Positions 51,522 to 59,042 of a stretch of DNA of 64,000 nt are shown here, piece after piece. Origin of the DNA: Methanofollis ethanolicus. Lineage in GTDB: Archaea > Halobacteriota > Methanomicrobia > Methanomicrobiales > Methanofollaceae. Numbering within the stretch: the first letter of the stretch is position 1; each line of letters opens with the position of its first letter. The position numbers and the translations under genes were made by a program. The DNA lies in assembly GCF_001571385.1 (NCBI RefSeq), contig NZ_BCNW01000001.1, positions 2,519,470 through 2,583,469 of the forward strand. Direction: 5' to 3'. The notes beneath the pieces are model-generated. The model was given only the letters and a program-made list of their open reading frames with translations. It had not been told where the DNA came from and made no database searches.

Positions 51522-52091
51522 TCATACCGTGAATATCTCCCGTGAGCCGGTAATCGCAAAAAGTCCGGCCTGGACCCCGGCATCGAGCCACCCATACCCG
51601 TAGGAGTACCAGCCAAGGGCCTCGGCCAGCCGCCCGCACCCGGCATGGCCCTGCCCGTCTGTAAGGGCCGCCCGGCCAGCCGCCCGCACCCGGCATGCGG
51701 CGGAGAACATCGGGGTCTCCGCGTCGGGTGCCGGTTCGACAGATGAGAGGGCCTGCGAGAGGAGACGCTCGTACCGGGCAGTCTTTTCCTCAAGGTGGCC
51801 GGCAAGGGACGGCGGGATATGTGCCGCAAAGTCGTACGAGGGGGGGACAGTCCGACCGCCGTACAGGCCGAGATATGCCCCGGCATCCAGCCAGCCAGAG
51901 GCATAGGCAAAACTTGCGTGGGCATTCACGAGGTCGCCCCGCGCCGCAAAGACCCGCCCGTCAGAGAGGTACGACTCAGCCATCCTGAGGACGCAGGCCT
52001 CGACCCGTGCAAGCGCCGATCCCTCCGGGACGGCAGGGACAATCTCATCGAGAGCCGCTTCCAGGGCGTCGCCGGAGAAGGGAGAGGTCAT
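51522..52091 (-). CDS. DUF357 protein with internal duplication
   Basis: A 189-residue protein with two DUF357-like parts: [20 protein letters not shown] (about 63-82) and [20 protein letters not shown] (about 160-179). A 25-bp stretch recurs 50 bp apart near 51624 and 51674, in two different reading frames, so part of the linker may have been inserted. DUF357 has no known function. It overlaps dphB by 4 bp, the dphB stop lying downstream, so the two are coupled. Confidence 0.8.
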
Positions 52092-52837
52092 AGGCCAGCA
52101 AAGGCCGAGAGGTACTCCCTCTCCATCACGTGGAGTTCGCCCGGGACGACGAGGATATGGAGGGGGCCGCCGAAGTCCACGCCGGCAAGCGCCTCAGCCG
52201 TACCGGCCGCGACGACAGGCGCAGGCGACCCGGCCCGCGCCACGCCGATATACAGCGGGACCGAGATGCCGCGGTCCGCTGCCATCTTCTCCAGCATCGC
52301 CACCGCCTCAGGGATCCGCATGTACCGGTCCGGCTGGATGTCCAGGTACACCAGGGTGTGGAGATTTTCGGCCATATTGTGCTCGATTACCTCGATCGGC
52401 GTCGTCGGCGCCCACTTCCCGTACGGGAACGGAAGGGAGCAGGACTTGCCGAACCGGTAGTTCTGGAGCCCGGTCAACCCGCAGACTGCGCTCACGATCG
52501 AGGCGCCGTGGATGATCGCCGTCTCGACCCCCATCGCCGACGCCCTGATCCGCAGGTCGATGTGAGTGGTCGAGACCATCGGGTCACCTGCCGTCAGGAA
52601 AGCGACGTCCTCGTCCTTCGCCAGCGCAAGAAAAGACTCAGGATGTCCCTCGACATCGTCACGGTACAGGTACCGCACCTTCTTCCCGAAGAGTGCTTCC
52701 ATCTTCTCGGGCGTCGCCCCGGTCAGCACCGAGGTATAGTGTTCGAGAAAAACATGATCAGCCTGCCTGATCCGTTCCAGACCCTTCAGGGAGAGGTCGG
52801 TCTCGTCATAGAGGCCAAGTCCGATAAATGTCAGCAT
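52088..52837 (-). CDS. dphB: diphthine synthase DphB
   Basis: A 249-residue SAM-dependent methyltransferase of the tetrapyrrole-methylase fold. [16 protein letters not shown] starts it, [19 protein letters not shown] is the SAM-binding region, and [11 protein letters not shown] follows. It makes diphthine on the His of elongation factor 2, an archaeal and eukaryotic modification. It is coupled to the DUF357 gene by an ATGA-type overlap. Confidence 0.93.
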
Positions 52838-52899: not shown

Positions 52900-54075
52900 T
52901 CACGCCGGGTCTGTGCTCCGGGTGATCAGACAGACCAGGGCGTCGAGCACGCCCATCGCCCCGTCCGGGTCCAGGGCCGAGAAGGGATGGAGCGGCGTCT
53001 CCTCGGGGAGAGAGAGGGCCACCCGCAGGTCCCGGTCAGGCACCCTCTCTGGAAGATCCCCTTTGTTCACCGCCACGACAAAGGGCGCGTCCATCTCCCT
53101 GATCTCGTCCAGGATCGCACGCGCCCGGCCGAAAGACGCCGTGCTGGTGCCGTCCACCATGAAGACGACGCCGGTCGCGTTGGTGAGCAGGTGCCTGATG
53201 ATCGGCCCGAAGTGCTCCTGACCGGGCGTACCCATCAGGGTGAGGTCAAAACCCCGGCAGGTGACATGGAGATGGCCGACGTCCATCGCCACCGTCGTCG
53301 GTGACCCCGACATACTTATCCGGTCGGACGAGACCGACGTCTCCGAAAGTGTCCTGATGAATGTGGTCTTCCCCGCGTCCACCGGGCCGGTGACGACGAT
53401 CTTCGGGAGATAGGGGATGAGGTAGCCGTCGTCCCCGACCACGAAGGGGAGGGGCATGTCAGGGGCGCGGGTCCAGGACAGGTGTTCTATCCTGAAGTGG
53501 TTCAGAAAAAGGAAGTTCTCAAACCCCTCGCCTGCCGAGAGCACCAGGTCGAAGGGAATGCCGGCCGAAAGCGCCCCGAGGTGGTCGCGGTCATAGAGGT
53601 TGAGGTACTCCACATAGAGGGTCAGACCGAGCCTGCGGCACATCCCGACAAAGAGAGAGAGGGCCTCCTCGGTCCCGAGGGCGTCGCAGATCCGGTTGCA
53701 GTAGAGGAAGACGGTATCGATCCCGCAGTCCGCGGCAAGGGAGGTGACGAGGTCATCCCACGCCCCGGCCTCAGAAGAGGGAGTGGCCGCCCTGCTCCCA
53801 TGGATCGCGTCGAAGGCGGAGGCATCGAGGAAGACAAGATTTTCCTCCGAGGAAAGGGCATAGGGCGTCCCCGAGAGGTCGGCACAATACGCGCCTGCCG
53901 TCGTGTACGGGACGATCACAAGGCAGCGTCGGCCAAGGCCGTGCCCACTCCTGAGGGCGCTGTACAGTAACTGCTGACCGTCGACACCGGGGGCAAGAGA
54001 AAAGAGCGCCATACCTCCCGGCGGTATGCCGCCGCCCAGCATTTCGTCGAGCGCCGGGATACCGATCGGGATCAT
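52900..54075 (-). CDS. degenerate KaiC-like domain fused to a small GTPase
   Basis: A 391-residue fusion. Residues about 1-215 resemble a KaiC/RAD55 RecA fold (GIPALDEMLGGGIPPGG) but have APGVDGQQ where the Walker A lysine-Thr should be, so it probably does not bind ATP. Residues about 224-391 form a small GTPase. GPVDAGKTT (230-238) is G1, GTPGQEHF (282-289) is the G3-like motif and NKGD (about 334) is G4. The GTPase resembles the COG2229/CvnD-like group. It overlaps the upstream gene as ATGA and closes the feo operon. Confidence 0.8.
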   Translation of the reverse strand: MIPIGIPALDEMLGGGIPPGGMALFSLAPGVDGQQLLYSALRSGHGLGRRCLVIVPYTTAGAYCADLSGTPYALSSEENLVFLDASAFDAIHGSRAATPSSEAGAWDDLVTSLAADCGIDTVFLYCNRICDALGTEEALSLFVGMCRRLGLTLYVEYLNLYDRDHLGALSAGIPFDLVLSAGEGFENFLFLNHFRIEHLSWTRAPDMPLPFVVGDDGYLIPYLPKIVVTGPVDAGKTTFIRTLSETSVSSDRISMSGSPTTVAMDVGHLHVTCRGFDLTLMGTPGQEHFGPIIRHLLTNATGVVFMVDGTSTASFGRARAILDEIREMDAPFVVAVNKGDLPERVPDRDLRVALSLPEETPLHPFSALDPDGAMGVLDALVCLITRSTDPA

Positions 54076-54770
54076 GGCTCCACCACCAGGTCGTCGCCTT
54101 CAAAGTGGTAGCGCACCCGCGGGGAGACCCTGCCCGAGAGGTCCTGGTAGCGCAGGGCATGGACCCCGGGGTCGCCGTCACATGCCTCCACCTCGATGAT
54201 CCCGGTCATCAGTTGCTTCAGGGTGGAAACCGTCTTCTCGTCGACAGATTCCGGATTGAGGAGGTAGACCCCGACGCCGTTCATCCTCCTGATGCGGGCA
54301 GAGAAGATGTGGAAGAAACGATAAATCGCTTCGAGCTTCGTATAGATCAGAAAACTGGAGAGGGAGTTGACACAGACCCTCACCTGCCCGGGCGCCGCGT
54401 CCCCTGCATCCCCGGCCCTCTGGACACCGTCCAGGATCTTCGTGAACTTGATCCCTATGCCTGTCAGATCGGCCGGACTGCCGACGTACTTCACCCATTC
54501 GGTGTCGGTGGCGCCAGGGACCACGCTCTTCGTGATGCAGTCCAGGACCCAGACCCGCCCGTCGTCCTCGCCAAAAGCAGTGCAGACGCTCGGCGCGTCC
54601 TCGTCTGTGGAGATGACGACAGTATAATCGGCCTCTGCCGGGCGCACCAGGGCATAGGCGAGGCGTTCGGCGTCGGAAAATGGCGGGGCAAGGAGGAGAA
54701 TATTGGAGGGCGGCCTGATCTCGCCGATCCGACCATCTATCTCCCTGACACCTGCACAGATCCTGTCCAT
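54072..54770 (-). CDS. degenerate KaiC-like protein
   Basis: A 232-residue protein. It resembles RecA/KaiC folds at VRVCVNSLSSFLIYTKLEAI and VYLLNPESVDEKTVSTLKQL, but it has no Walker A motif (LLLAPPFSDAE instead). It probably lost ATPase activity. The ATG at 54770 is preceded by GGGGTAA; a GTG at 54776 directly after the feoB stop is possible. It is co-transcribed with feoB, and the downstream KaiC-GTPase gene overlaps its stop. Confidence 0.75.
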   Translation of the reverse strand: MDRICAGVREIDGRIGEIRPPSNILLLAPPFSDAERLAYALVRPAEADYTVVISTDEDAPSVCTAFGEDDGRVWVLDCITKSVVPGATDTEWVKYVGSPADLTGIGIKFTKILDGVQRAGDAGDAAPGQVRVCVNSLSSFLIYTKLEAIYRFFHIFSARIRRMNGVGVYLLNPESVDEKTVSTLKQLMTGIIEVEACDGDPGVHALRYQDLSGRVSPRVRYHFEGDDLVVEP

Positions 54771-54776
54771 CGCCAC

Positions 54777-56627
54777 TTACCCCGCGATCAGATGTATGAG
54801 TGCCCCGACACAAAATCCGATCGCAATCGTGTAGGCCGAGACCGCGACCGTCACCCTCGCACCCATCTCCTTCAAGAGCACGGCGATCGTCGAGATGCAG
54901 GGGACGAAGAGGACGCTGATAACGGCGAAAGTGTAGAGCTGGACCGCGCTCATCACCGAGGCAAGATCCGCGGTCCCGGCAAGGACGGCAAGGGTCTCAA
55001 AGGCCATCTCCTTCCGGAGGATGCCGAAGAGCAGGGCGGTCGTGGCCGATGCAGGCAGGCCGAACAGGCCCTCGGAGATCGGGGTGACCGCCTCGGAGAA
55101 CGCGGCGACCCAGCCGAAATAATCGAGGGCGCCAAGGACGACGCTCCCTGCAAGGAGCAGGGGCATGGCGATGAAGAGAAACTCCTTGATCCGCTGCCAG
55201 GACTTTTTGATGACGAGCGCGGCGTCGGGCCGCCTGAGAGGGGCCATCTCCAGGATCATGCCGTACTGCCCGCCGGGGATCGAACGGGCAAGGAAGATGC
55301 CGGTCAGGATAATGAGGGTAAGGACGATGAAATAGACGGAAAGCGCGGCGCCGAGGCCGACGAAGGCGGCGACGATCCCGGTGATGATCACTGTCCGCGC
55401 AGAGCAGGGGACCATCGTGATCAGGAACGCGGCGATCGTCCGTTCCCTCGTCGTCCGCAACTGCCCGGCCGCCATCACCGCGGGCACATTGCAGCCGAAG
55501 GCCATCACCATCGGAATGATGGCGCCGCCATGAAGGCCGAGGCTGTGCATCGCACGGTCGGCAAGGAAAGCCGCACGCGTCAGGTAGCCGGAGTCCTCGA
55601 CGATGGAGAGGAGGATATAGTAGATGAAGACGAAGGGGAAGGCGATCCCGAGGCCAGCGACAATGGCAAGGAGCGCCGCCATCCCGATGGTGTGGAGGAG
55701 GGGAGGGAGGGCGAGGGCCGAAAAGGGCTCGATCAAAAAGACGGAGAAGGCCTCCACGATCACTCCCTCGATAAACGATCCGGCGGTAAAGACTACGAGA
55801 AGCATCGAGAGGAGGACGGCAAAAAGGATCGGTATCCCGGGAAAGGACTTCGTGAGCAGCCGGTCCAGGGAAAAACGGCGGTCCGGTTCCCGCGCCCCGA
55901 CGACCTCGCCGCAGATCTGCCGGGCGCAGAGGTGGCGGTTGGCGGCGATGATCTGGCCGGGCGCCATGTGATTGCGGGACTCGATCTCTGCGGCAATCGC
56001 CCGCGCCCCTTCGAGAAGGTCAGCATCGTGCCCGATCCCCTGAAGGGCCTGAAGGGCGGGAAGGCGCGGCGCCCCGTACATTTTCTCCATGCTCCGCACG
56101 GCCGCCTCGATCTCAGGGGTGTACGGCACGGACAGCCCGGAGACGGTCGCGTCATGCACGGCCGCCGGGACGATCCGGTCGATGTTCTGCCCCAGGGAGG
56201 CGGCGGTCTCGATCACCGGCAGACCGAGCAGTTCTGAAAGCCGCTCGCGGTCGATGGAGAGTCCCTGCTCCATCGCTTCGTCGATCATGTTCAGGACAAC
56301 GACCGTCGGGATCCCGTACTCGGCCAGCTGGAGGAGGAGGTAGAGGTTCCGCTCCATCCGGGTGGCGTCGAGGACGGCGACCACCCGGTCGGGAGGTTCA
56401 TTGACGAGGTACGAGCGCACCAGTTCTTCTTCCTGCGAATCGCCGTCAAGAGAATAGATCCCGGGGAGGTCGACGACCTCCAGGGGGAAACGGCGGTAAC
56501 AGAGTTTCCCCTGCAGCAGTTCCACGGTCGTGCCCGGATAGTTCGAGACCTCGACACCGAGGCCGGTGAGCTGGTTGAAGATGAGCGACTTGCCGACGCT
56601 CGGATTCCCGACAAGGGCGCACTTCAT
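54777..56627 (-). CDS. feoB: ferrous iron transport protein FeoB
   Basis: A 616-residue Fe2+ transporter. The N-terminal G domain shows GNPSVGKS (G1), VDLPGIYSLD (G3) and NMID (G4). The C-terminal membrane core has Gate motifs with TRAAFLADRAMHSLGLHG and MAFGCNVPAVMA, and about eight helices. It drives iron uptake. Its ATG overlaps the stop of the DtxR-FeoA gene by 4 bp. No separate feoA is present in the window; the upstream protein carries the FeoA domain. Confidence 0.95.
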   Translation of the reverse strand: MKCALVGNPSVGKSLIFNQLTGLGVEVSNYPGTTVELLQGKLCYRRFPLEVVDLPGIYSLDGDSQEEELVRSYLVNEPPDRVVAVLDATRMERNLYLLLQLAEYGIPTVVVLNMIDEAMEQGLSIDRERLSELLGLPVIETAASLGQNIDRIVPAAVHDATVSGLSVPYTPEIEAAVRSMEKMYGAPRLPALQALQGIGHDADLLEGARAIAAEIESRNHMAPGQIIAANRHLCARQICGEVVGAREPDRRFSLDRLLTKSFPGIPILFAVLLSMLLVVFTAGSFIEGVIVEAFSVFLIEPFSALALPPLLHTIGMAALLAIVAGLGIAFPFVFIYYILLSIVEDSGYLTRAAFLADRAMHSLGLHGGAIIPMVMAFGCNVPAVMAAGQLRTTRERTIAAFLITMVPCSARTVIITGIVAAFVGLGAALSVYFIVLTLIILTGIFLARSIPGGQYGMILEMAPLRRPDAALVIKKSWQRIKEFLFIAMPLLLAGSVVLGALDYFGWVAAFSEAVTPISEGLFGLPASATTALLFGILRKEMAFETLAVLAGTADLASVMSAVQLYTFAVISVLFVPCISTIAVLLKEMGARVTVAVSAYTIAIGFCVGALIHLIAG

Positions 56628-57259
56628 GCCGTCTTCTCCGCAAAGATCGTCGAGGCAATCTCGGGCGAGAGAGCGATGTCGGCACCCTTCACCGTCACGA
56701 CGACGGCGTTATTCCCGAGTTTACGCTGAAGAACAATCTTTTCACCGGGAATGACGCCAAGATCGATGAGCCGCCGGTTCTTGCCGATACACCGGATCAT
56801 CGTGACCTCCATGATGTCCCCCTCGGCGAAATCAAGGAGCGTGTGCCGGGAGTGTCGACCGGCCCCCGCCCCCCGCCGCATCGCCCTGTGACGACCGGGG
56901 TCCTGGATATATGTCGAGAGACGGTCGATCGTCTCTTCGGAAACGCCGTGCTCGAGGACACATGCCTCCTTCGAGGCCGCACCCGTGTCCATACCGAGCA
57001 TCTCGGAGAGGAAGCACTCGAGGACGCGGTGTTTCCTGAACACAATCTCCGCAGCCGTCTTCCCCTGCGGAGTGAGCAGGTAGCCGCCGTCCTGCAGGAC
57101 GATGTCCTCGTCGGCGACGAGAGTCCGGAGTGCCGCCACGACCTCGGCGGTGTCGGCATCCACCGCCCCCCCGATCCCGGCTTCGCTCACAGGCCGGCAA
57201 CCTTTGCCGGATAGGGTGAGGATCGCCTCAAGGCAGTCTTCCCGGACAGAAGAACTCAT
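56624..57259 (-). CDS. DtxR-family regulator with FeoA (SH3-like) domain
   Basis: A 211-residue protein. Residues about 1-125 form a DtxR metalloregulator: a winged helix, then metal ligands in SKEACVLEHGVSEE (Cys, Glu, His), and LLTPQGK before them. Residues about 140-211 form an FeoA/SH3-like domain (DIMEVTMIRCIGKNRRLIDL, GVIPGEKIVL). It may sense Fe2+ or Mn2+ and control the operon, and its FeoA part may act on FeoB. The start at 57259 is an ATG; the upstream 'ATGTATGTATG' gives alternative starts. Confidence 0.88.
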   Translation of the reverse strand: MSSSVREDCLEAILTLSGKGCRPVSEAGIGGAVDADTAEVVAALRTLVADEDIVLQDGGYLLTPQGKTAAEIVFRKHRVLECFLSEMLGMDTGAASKEACVLEHGVSEETIDRLSTYIQDPGRHRAMRRGAGAGRHSRHTLLDFAEGDIMEVTMIRCIGKNRRLIDLGVIPGEKIVLQRKLGNNAVVVTVKGADIALSPEIASTIFAEKTA

Positions 57260-57356: not shown

Positions 57357-59042
57357 ATGGCGATGGCGAACCGGCAGGTGGCCGCGGTGCTCGAAGAGAT
57401 CGGTCAGTTGCTGGATATCCACGGCGAGAATCCCTACAAAGTCAGGGCCTATGCCAGGGCCGCCGAACTCATCGGCATGCTCGACCGCCCTGTGGCGGCG
57501 ATGGACAGGGAGGAACTGGAAGCGATCCCCGGCATCGGAAAGGCCCTCGCCGAAAAGATCCGGGCGATTGCCACGACCGGCACCTGCCCTGAAAGGGACC
57601 GCCTCCTTGCAGCGACGCCGGCCGGTCTCCCCGCCCTCCTCGCCCTCCAGGGCGTCGGACCAAAGACGGTCGGCCGCCTCTGGAGAGACCTCGACATCGA
57701 GGGGATCGACGACCTGGAGGCGGCGGCACGGAACCGCCGGCTCAGGGCGCTGAAGGGGTTCGGCCCGAAGAAGGAGCAGGAGATCCTGCGAGCCGTCGAG
57801 GAGGCCAGGAAGGGCGCGGAAAGGATGACCGTCGCCGAAGCAGGCGCGATCGCCGCCGCGATCCTCGCCGTCCTCCCCGGCGAGGCGCGTGTTGCCGGGA
57901 GCCTGCGCCGCGGCCGGTCCACGGTCGGCGACATCGACATCGTCACCACCGCACCCTCCGGCCCCGCGAACCTGGCCCTGCGGGCTCTCGCGGAGAGTGT
58001 CGTCGAGGAAGGGGAGAAAAAGACCACCCTGCGGATACGGGGGAGGCAGGCAGACATCAGGTACGCCCGCACCGGCGAGGAGGGGGCGATGCTCCTCTAC
58101 CTCACCGGTTCGAAGGCCTTCAACATCCGCCTCCGCGAGATCGCCCGGACACAGGGGATGCGGCTGAACGAGTACGGCCTGACAGACCTGGCGACAGGGC
58201 GACTGTCTGTCTACCGGACAGAAGAAGAGATCTTTGCCGCCCTCGGCATGGCGCCTGTGCCCCCTGAACTGCGGGAGGACCGCGGCGAGGTCGAGCGCGC
58301 CCTCCGCGGCGATCTCCCCTCCCTCGTCAACGAAGCCGATATCAGGGGCGACCTCCATGTCCACTCTGACTGGAGCGACGGAGCCATGAGCCTCGACGAG
58401 ATCGCCGCCGCGGGAGAGGAGAGAGGATACGAGTATGTCCTGGTCACCGACCACTCGGCAAGCCTCGGGGTCGCGCACGGCCTCGATGCCGAACGCCTGC
58501 AGAAACAGCAGGAAGCGATCAGGAGGGTCAACCGCGCCGCCGCCTGCACCCTCCTCTCAGGCGTTGAGGTGGACATCCTTGCCGACGGGAGGCTTGCCCT
58601 GCCGGCGGCCGTCCTCGACGACTGCGACCTTGTCGTCGCCTCGGTCCACTCGGCCTTCAGGCAGGACGCCGACACCATGACCCGCCGGGTGATCGCGGCG
58701 ATGGAACACGAGCAGGTGGACATCATCGGCCACCCGACCGCGCGACTCATCGGGAGGCGGCCGGCCACGGCGATCGACATGGCACGGGTGATCGATGCGG
58801 CGGCAACGACAGGGACCGCCCTTGAGATCAATGCCTCGCCGGCGCGCATGGATATCGATGATATTTATATCAGGCAGGCAAAAAAGAAAGGCGTGAAACT
58901 GGCAATCGGGACTGACGCGCATTCTGCCGGCGAACTCGGCCACCTGCACTACGGCGTCGCCCTCGCCCGGCGGGGCTGGTGCGGTGCCGGAGACGTCCTC
59001 AATACCCGGCGGCCTGCCGATCTACCGGGGCGGTGCCGGTGA
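57357..59042 (+). CDS. polX: DNA polymerase/3'-5' exonuclease PolX
   Basis: A 561-residue family X DNA polymerase. Helix-hairpin-helix motifs (AIPGIGKALAEKI, LQGVGPKTVGRL, LKGFGPKKEQEI) come first. The polymerase palm LRRGRSTVGDIDIVTT carries the metal acids. The C-terminal PHP exonuclease has DLHVHSDWSDG, VTDHS, SGVEVDIL, VHSAF, IGHPTARL and GTDAHSAGE. It fills gaps and proofreads in base excision repair. Its stop overlaps the start of the next gene as GTGA. Start at 57357 (MAMANRQ) or six bases later (MANRQ). Confidence 0.93.
   Translation: MAMANRQVAAVLEEIGQLLDIHGENPYKVRAYARAAELIGMLDRPVAAMDREELEAIPGIGKALAEKIRAIATTGTCPERDRLLAATPAGLPALLALQGVGPKTVGRLWRDLDIEGIDDLEAAARNRRLRALKGFGPKKEQEILRAVEEARKGAERMTVAEAGAIAAAILAVLPGEARVAGSLRRGRSTVGDIDIVTTAPSGPANLALRALAESVVEEGEKKTTLRIRGRQADIRYARTGEEGAMLLYLTGSKAFNIRLREIARTQGMRLNEYGLTDLATGRLSVYRTEEEIFAALGMAPVPPELREDRGEVERALRGDLPSLVNEADIRGDLHVHSDWSDGAMSLDEIAAAGEERGYEYVLVTDHSASLGVAHGLDAERLQKQQEAIRRVNRAAACTLLSGVEVDILADGRLALPAAVLDDCDLVVASVHSAFRQDADTMTRRVIAAMEHEQVDIIGHPTARLIGRRPATAIDMARVIDAAATTGTALEINASPARMDIDDIYIRQAKKKGVKLAIGTDAHSAGELGHLHYGVALARRGWCGAGDVLNTRRPADLPGRCR

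Follow-up and report, generated by a model that had tools for sequence, protein, structure and literature searches.

We show that a predicted ferrous iron uptake operon of Methanofollis ethanolicus ends in two genes coding KaiC-like proteins, the second of which is fused to a small Ras/MglA-like GTPase, and that this layout recurs across the order Methanomicrobiales. We consider the pair a good candidate for a control layer on iron uptake in this order.

Results

Within the 64,000-nucleotide stretch analyzed here (hereafter, the window), the genes for a DtxR-FeoA fusion, FeoB, a KaiC-like protein (KAI) and a KaiC-like/GTPase fusion (FUS) are tightly packed on the minus strand, from position 57259 down to 52900 (Table 1). 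All four open reading frames of the original prediction were recovered at these coordinates and supported by Pfam and NCBIfam matches. The model of the DtxR N-terminal helix-turn-helix had no match for the dtxR-feoA product among the matches listed, and no RNA family reached the gathering score at the locus. The divergent neighbor of dtxR-feoA presumably codes a PolX/PHP-domain protein. Packing by ATGA overlaps, as originally described, is found between dtxR-feoA and feoB (56624-56627) and between KAI and FUS (4 nt; 54072-54075), but feoB and KAI merely abut, as the TAA of feoB ends at 54777 and the GTG of KAI begins at 54776. Homologues favor an ATG at 54770 as the KAI start (232 aa, against 234 aa from the GTG), such that the feoB-KAI gap in the window is 0-6 nt depending on the start chosen. 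Downstream of FUS follow dphB and a DUF357 gene, which are kept together with the pair in relatives.

Table 1 Features of the feoB-KAI-FUS locus in the Methanofollis ethanolicus window.
Feature	Position	Strand	Length (aa)	Evidence
DtxR-type regulator fused to FeoA domain	56624..57259	-	211	PF02742 (Fe_dep_repr_C), 69.5 bits; PF04023 (FeoA), 44.3 bits
FeoB ferrous iron transporter	54777..56627	-	616	TIGR00437, 450 bits (cut-off 315.65); Pfam FeoB_N, Gate (two), FeoB_C
KAI, KaiC-like pseudo-ATPase, DUF7504	54072..54776	-		PF24336, 106.8 bits (cut-off 27)
FUS, KaiC-like domain and Ras/MglA-like GTPase	52900..54075	-	391	Full-length orthologues; predicted model
FUS N-terminal KaiC-like domain (aa 1-223)	53407..54075	-		Predicted fold; without Walker A lysine
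FUS C-terminal small GTPase (aa 224-391)	52903..53406	-		TIGR00231, 52 bits; PF00025 (Arf); PF00071 (Ras); Pfam GTP_EFTU
dphB-like diphthine synthase	52088..52837	-	249	PF00590, 75 bits
DUF357 gene	51522..52091	-	189	PF04010, 135.7 bits; ATGA overlap with dphB
Putative PolX/PHP-domain gene, divergent neighbor of dtxR-feoA	57357..59042	+		Locus maps; context only

Conservation and spacing in Methanomicrobiales

By its named homologues, the genome falls next to Methanofollis within Methanomicrobiales. Across 150 genomes of the order, a dtxR-feoA orthologue was present in 140 (E<=1e-6), a KAI orthologue in 62 and a full-length FUS in 37. By our reading of the search results, with one genome (G131) set aside because of a contig end, 55 of the 61 assessable genomes with KAI had FeoB at most ~3 kb from it, and 33 of the 37 with FUS had FeoB that close to FUS. 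The expectation that the pair would stay next to feoB in relatives is thus borne out within the order, and, as far as sequence allows, the pair reads as part of the feo transcript rather than of one with its own promoter. The commonest gene order is polX (divergent), dtxR-feoA, feoB, KAI, FUS, dphB and DUF357, with polX divergent beside dtxR-feoA in much of the order according to the locus maps; the recurrence of this layout across an order suggests an arrangement beyond chance. Methanoculleus retains feoB-KAI and lacks FUS, and several families carry feoB-dphB-DUF357 with neither gene. In one genome (G112), KAI is truncated or damaged, with feoB and dphB still flanking it (L073:9554-10132), apparently a loss in progress.

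The feoB-KAI gap had a median of 11 nt and fell between -8 and 19 nt in 63 of 69 tandem loci, and the typical KAI-FUS gap was -4 nt; FUS and dphB were separated by a variable gap (median 49 nt), and dphB and DUF357 by -4 nt in most loci. These figures come from two overlapping locus sets, and the counts are not independent. KAI and FUS share the strand of feoB at tight, conserved spacing, the features by which we assign genes to a feo operon, whereas FUS and dphB lie ~50 nt apart, a spacing that links the pair more closely with feoB than with dphB. The spacing suggests two units, dtxR-feoA-feoB-KAI-FUS and dphB-DUF357, the latter probably separate. KAI was present in 55 of the 96 genomes in which feoB lies no more than 8 kb from dphB and in 7 of the 42 others (Fisher P = 1e-5), a test that ignores phylogeny, in which a few families weigh heavily and one of the 7 represents a contig break.

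Loss and replacement of the neighboring FeoB

Methanocalculus (G012, G018, G036) and G017 have lost the local FeoB and keep an intact pair, including the GTPase motifs of FUS. In two Methanospirillaceae genomes (G047, G148), FeoB and dtxR-feoA are located elsewhere, FUS is gone and KAI is still at dphB. A tree of the FeoB proteins beside the pair resolved two deep clades, the usual tandem one and a distant one in Methanoregulaceae, whose members are 37-40% identical to the window FeoB and lie either in tandem or divergently with their own DtxR in between. At five Methanoregulaceae loci (L079, L080, L095, L096 and L097), the distant-clade FeoB with its own DtxR lies divergently beside KAI-FUS, replacing the usual FeoB. 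G068 and G132 carry the distant DtxR-FeoB cassette at another location, and so does G084, as a second copy. That the pair came to adjoin a second FeoB type favors a functional tie between the two, although the re-association may represent one event plus an inversion. The Methanofollis ethanolicus genome itself holds a second FeoB-like locus (C1, ~1498.2-1500.2 kb; L109:8250-10159) in two overlapping reading frames, one coding the N-terminal G-domain (231 aa) and the other, in a different frame, the membrane part (416 aa), which could be a natural split or a frameshift.

KaiC-like folds and the ATP site

AlphaFold models built from orthologue alignments reached a pLDDT of 87.8 for KAI and 86.8 for FUS. 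The KAI model matched KaiC-family structures in a structure search at Z 20-23 (22.9 to 2dr3, 21.5 to KaiC 8zn5), and residues 1-223 of the FUS model aligned with KaiC 2gbl (VIA-align Z 21.6, rmsd 2.8 over 210 residues), indicating a predicted KaiC/RecA core fold in both. At the sequence level, KAI is a member of DUF7504 by score, and the FUS N-terminal half had a weak, sub-threshold KaiC match; a PDB sequence search with KAI gave no meaningful match, and its KaiC fold emerged from structure comparison only.

As originally described, neither KaiC-like part carries a Walker A lysine, in the window or in any order-level orthologue, and neither would thus be expected to act as an active KaiC ATPase. 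In KAI, the Walker A position reads LAPPFSDAE, and Walker B is altered in most aligned KAI sequences (CVNSLS and similar). Tallied from the labels on the KAI tree, the lysine occurs in 0 of 83 KAI sequences inside Methanomicrobiales versus 38 of 39 outside, the order-level sequences forming a single clade (support 0.88). None of the FUS relatives, 52 inside the order and 23 outside, has the lysine in its KaiC half, which was thus probably inactive at the outset. The notion of two inactive RecA folds therefore holds for the window, but for KAI the loss is confined to this order. Both proteins are under purifying selection, with dN/dS against genus relatives of 0.08-0.29 for KAI and 0.19-0.42 for FUS, and values well below 1 for each FUS half, although both evolve faster than FeoB in every comparison. 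KAI residues invariant across the order include N23, P29, D77, P99, K108, H154 and D177.

GTPase domain of FUS

The motifs originally read in the fusion are all present, i.e., G1 (GPVDAGKTT), a G3 without the aspartate (GTPGQ) and G4 (NKGD), a combination (GxxxxGK[ST], NKxD and a TPGQ-type G3 lacking the conserved aspartate) that identifies a putative MglA/COG2229-like GTPase. Its proposed pairing with inactive RecA/KaiC folds is upheld by these motifs and by the predicted folds, the structure matches listed for FUS all coming from the KaiC half and the GTPase half being assigned on sequence alone. G1 is intact in 51 of 51 readable FUS sequences of the order; G4 (NKxD) is intact in 44 of these and lost in 7, versus 23 of 23 intact outside the order. 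Some of the sequences without G4 belong to other members of the window's genus, and some adjoin a replacement FeoB. We rejected a stand-alone GTPase of Methanoculleus as the displaced FUS domain, as it looks like a separate paralogue and is also present in the window's genome.

The module outside the order

In other families of the same phylum, Methanoperedenaceae GB37 and Met33H among them, KAI-FUS is mostly followed by a Roadblock/LC7 gene. The outside loci checked had no FeoB within 4.5 kb of KAI, and dphB was not a neighbor of the pair there. Since the module there is a KAI-FUS-Roadblock cassette away from feoB, the pair is not an innovation specific to iron uptake; the predicted iron link is conserved within Methanomicrobiales and does not extend to the outside loci. 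Conversely, no Roadblock/MglB gene is found at the window locus or beside KAI in the order, whereas one adjoins FUS at most outside loci. One outside locus codes a KaiC-like/GTPase/Roadblock-like triple fusion of 546 aa (L220:6752-8392), in which, as we read it, the Roadblock-like segment forms the C-terminus of FUS. Elsewhere, the cassette or KAI may adjoin CRS1_YhbY and S19e genes. KAI without FUS, next to CRS1_YhbY, occurs in some families; in one of these (f8; L223, L224, L225), KAI is followed by the gene for the RNA-binding CRS1_YhbY, a translation-related neighbor.

In the Methanofollis ethanolicus genome, the Roadblock protein closest to that of the cassette (C1:986331-986690; L251:6329-6709) adjoins a receiver-domain-like gene and is a possible in-trans partner of FUS. 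We found no specific link between the two, and Roadblock proteins also occur in most genomes without FUS, which led us to reject a specific in-trans partner.

Discussion

Our preferred reading, in which our confidence falls a little short of even, is that an old KaiC/Ras-GTPase/Roadblock switch was captured by the feo operon and has acquired an iron-linked function. The cassette would have come first, as two KaiC-fold proteins, the second fused to a Ras/MglA-like GTPase, plus a Roadblock/LC7 partner. The module would have landed between feoB and dphB in the ancestor of the whole order, or of its pair-carrying part, and become the tail of the dtxR-feoA-feoB transcription unit, with the Roadblock gene lost from the locus and the ATP-binding lysine lost from KAI. 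Co-produced KAI and FUS might form a KaiC-like scaffold on which the FUS GTPase domain switches with GTP, possibly aided by a Roadblock protein encoded elsewhere. Such a complex, made in proportion to FeoB, could act on iron uptake through contact with the cytosolic part of FeoB or by tuning the iron response.

The iron-linked reading is favored by the tight feoB-KAI packing, by the second FeoB beside the pair and by the rarity of KAI where feoB is not near dphB. It is weakened by the persistence of the pair, or of KAI, beside dphB without feoB in several lineages, by Methanoculleus, which keeps feoB-KAI without FUS, by the loss of G4 in 7 of 51 FUS sequences and by the absence of a Roadblock gene from the locus. 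The original suggestion that the pair regulates FeoB or iron status is reasonable as a lineage-specific hypothesis, but not as an inherent role, because the pair is more widely spread than the feoB link and survives losses and moves of feoB. The iron link within the order is stronger than could be known from the window, and the module is more widely spread than the link. A more specific version, in which the order recruited a Ras-like GTPase switch on a KaiC scaffold as an iron-status control on FeoB, the switch giving up its Roadblock partner and ATP site and gaining a coupling to ferrous transport in return, appears rather doubtful to us.

It is quite possible, if less than probable, that the pair is an autonomous KaiC/GTPase switch with a non-iron target, which a single insertion in the ancestor of the order placed between feoB and dphB, and that its closeness to feoB reflects an inherited, slowly rearranging block rather than shared function. 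The module lies away from feoB in the outside loci checked, the feoB-dphB-DUF357 block occurs without the pair in many genomes, making the pair an optional insert, and KAI remains beside dphB even after the departure of feoB. However, such a passenger accounts less readily for the very tight feoB-KAI spacing maintained across families, for a distant FeoB having again taken the place next to the pair in Methanoregulaceae, and for the scarcity of KAI where feoB is not near dphB.

In bacteria, FeoA and FeoC have been proposed to gate FeoB transport via its cytosolic domain. By analogy, KAI and FUS might be dedicated accessory subunits that bind the cytosolic GTPase/helical domain of FeoB and gate transport, as their operon position and coupling to feoB, the second GTPase that FUS would supply beside FeoB's own, and the re-association with a second FeoB type would fit. 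We regard this as unlikely, and less credible than either reading above, although it can in part be counted as a special case of the iron-linked one: several lineages retain the pair with no FeoB beside it, many FeoB-bearing genomes of the order lack the pair, Methanoculleus does without FUS, and GTPase motifs decay beside a replacement FeoB.

That the pair is an inactivated module heading for loss is very improbable; the missing lysines, the absence of FUS in Methanoculleus, the damaged KAI of G112 and the G4 losses point that way, but dN/dS well below 1 for KAI, FUS and both FUS halves, the invariant KAI residues and the retained start/stop overlap argue against it. We give hardly any credence to a role with dphB and DUF357 in diphthamide or translation, for although KAI or FUS adjoins dphB at every order-level locus with a contig long enough to include both, and translation-related genes may flank the cassette or KAI in other lineages, nearly all genomes of the order have dphB, often without the pair, the gap between FUS and dphB is longer and more variable than that between feoB and KAI, and dphB is no neighbor outside the order.

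Comparison with known systems

KaiC-like proteins have been proposed as archaeal signalling hubs (cited in PMC5847659), and few have an assigned target. One lineage links such a module to feoB across most pair-carrying genomes, which offers a concrete, testable target, and methanogens have a high iron demand (PMC8516115). The same module occurs with and without the ATP-site lysine, a Roadblock gene and a FeoB neighbor, providing a natural experiment. We found no literature linking KaiC-like proteins with FeoB and no paper under the name DUF7504 (PF24336), a family to which Pfam assigns no function; Makarova et al. (2017) may already describe KaiC-GTPase fusions. If the more specific version above is true, KaiC-scaffolded GTPase control of FeoB would represent a kind of Feo regulation that the literature examined does not describe.

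Inactivated KaiC-like (iKaiC) domains are known from archaeal signal-transduction proteins, according to a passage in PMC5847659 that cites Makarova et al. (2017; mBio e01959-17). KAI and FUS resemble them as archaeal KaiC-family domains judged inactivated, and differ in the fusion to a Ras-like GTPase, in the pairing of two KaiC-like proteins within a feo operon and in having no receiver or PAS domain. KAI shares its fold with ArlH/FlaH of the archaellum motor (4yds, Z 20.1), with a weak sequence match, but lies in a feo operon rather than an archaellum cluster and has lost the Walker A lysine. As in bacterial Feo systems (FeoA, FeoB, FeoC), the window has FeoB and, as a DtxR fusion, FeoA, whereas its extra genes code a KaiC-like protein and a KaiC-GTPase fusion instead of FeoC. 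A survey of MglA proteins found no conserved neighbors for the archaeal Group 4 MglA of methanogens (PMC4316618); it covered single-domain proteins of 150-240 aa, a range that excludes FUS, a 391-aa fusion behind a KaiC-like domain. FUS otherwise resembles the GTPase of MglA-MglB/Roadblock modules in its G1-G4 motifs, including a G3 without the usual aspartate, and in the Roadblock neighbor of the outside cassette, which the window locus lacks. By analogy, FUS and KAI may work like an MglA/Roadblock-type switch mounted on a KaiC-type scaffold.
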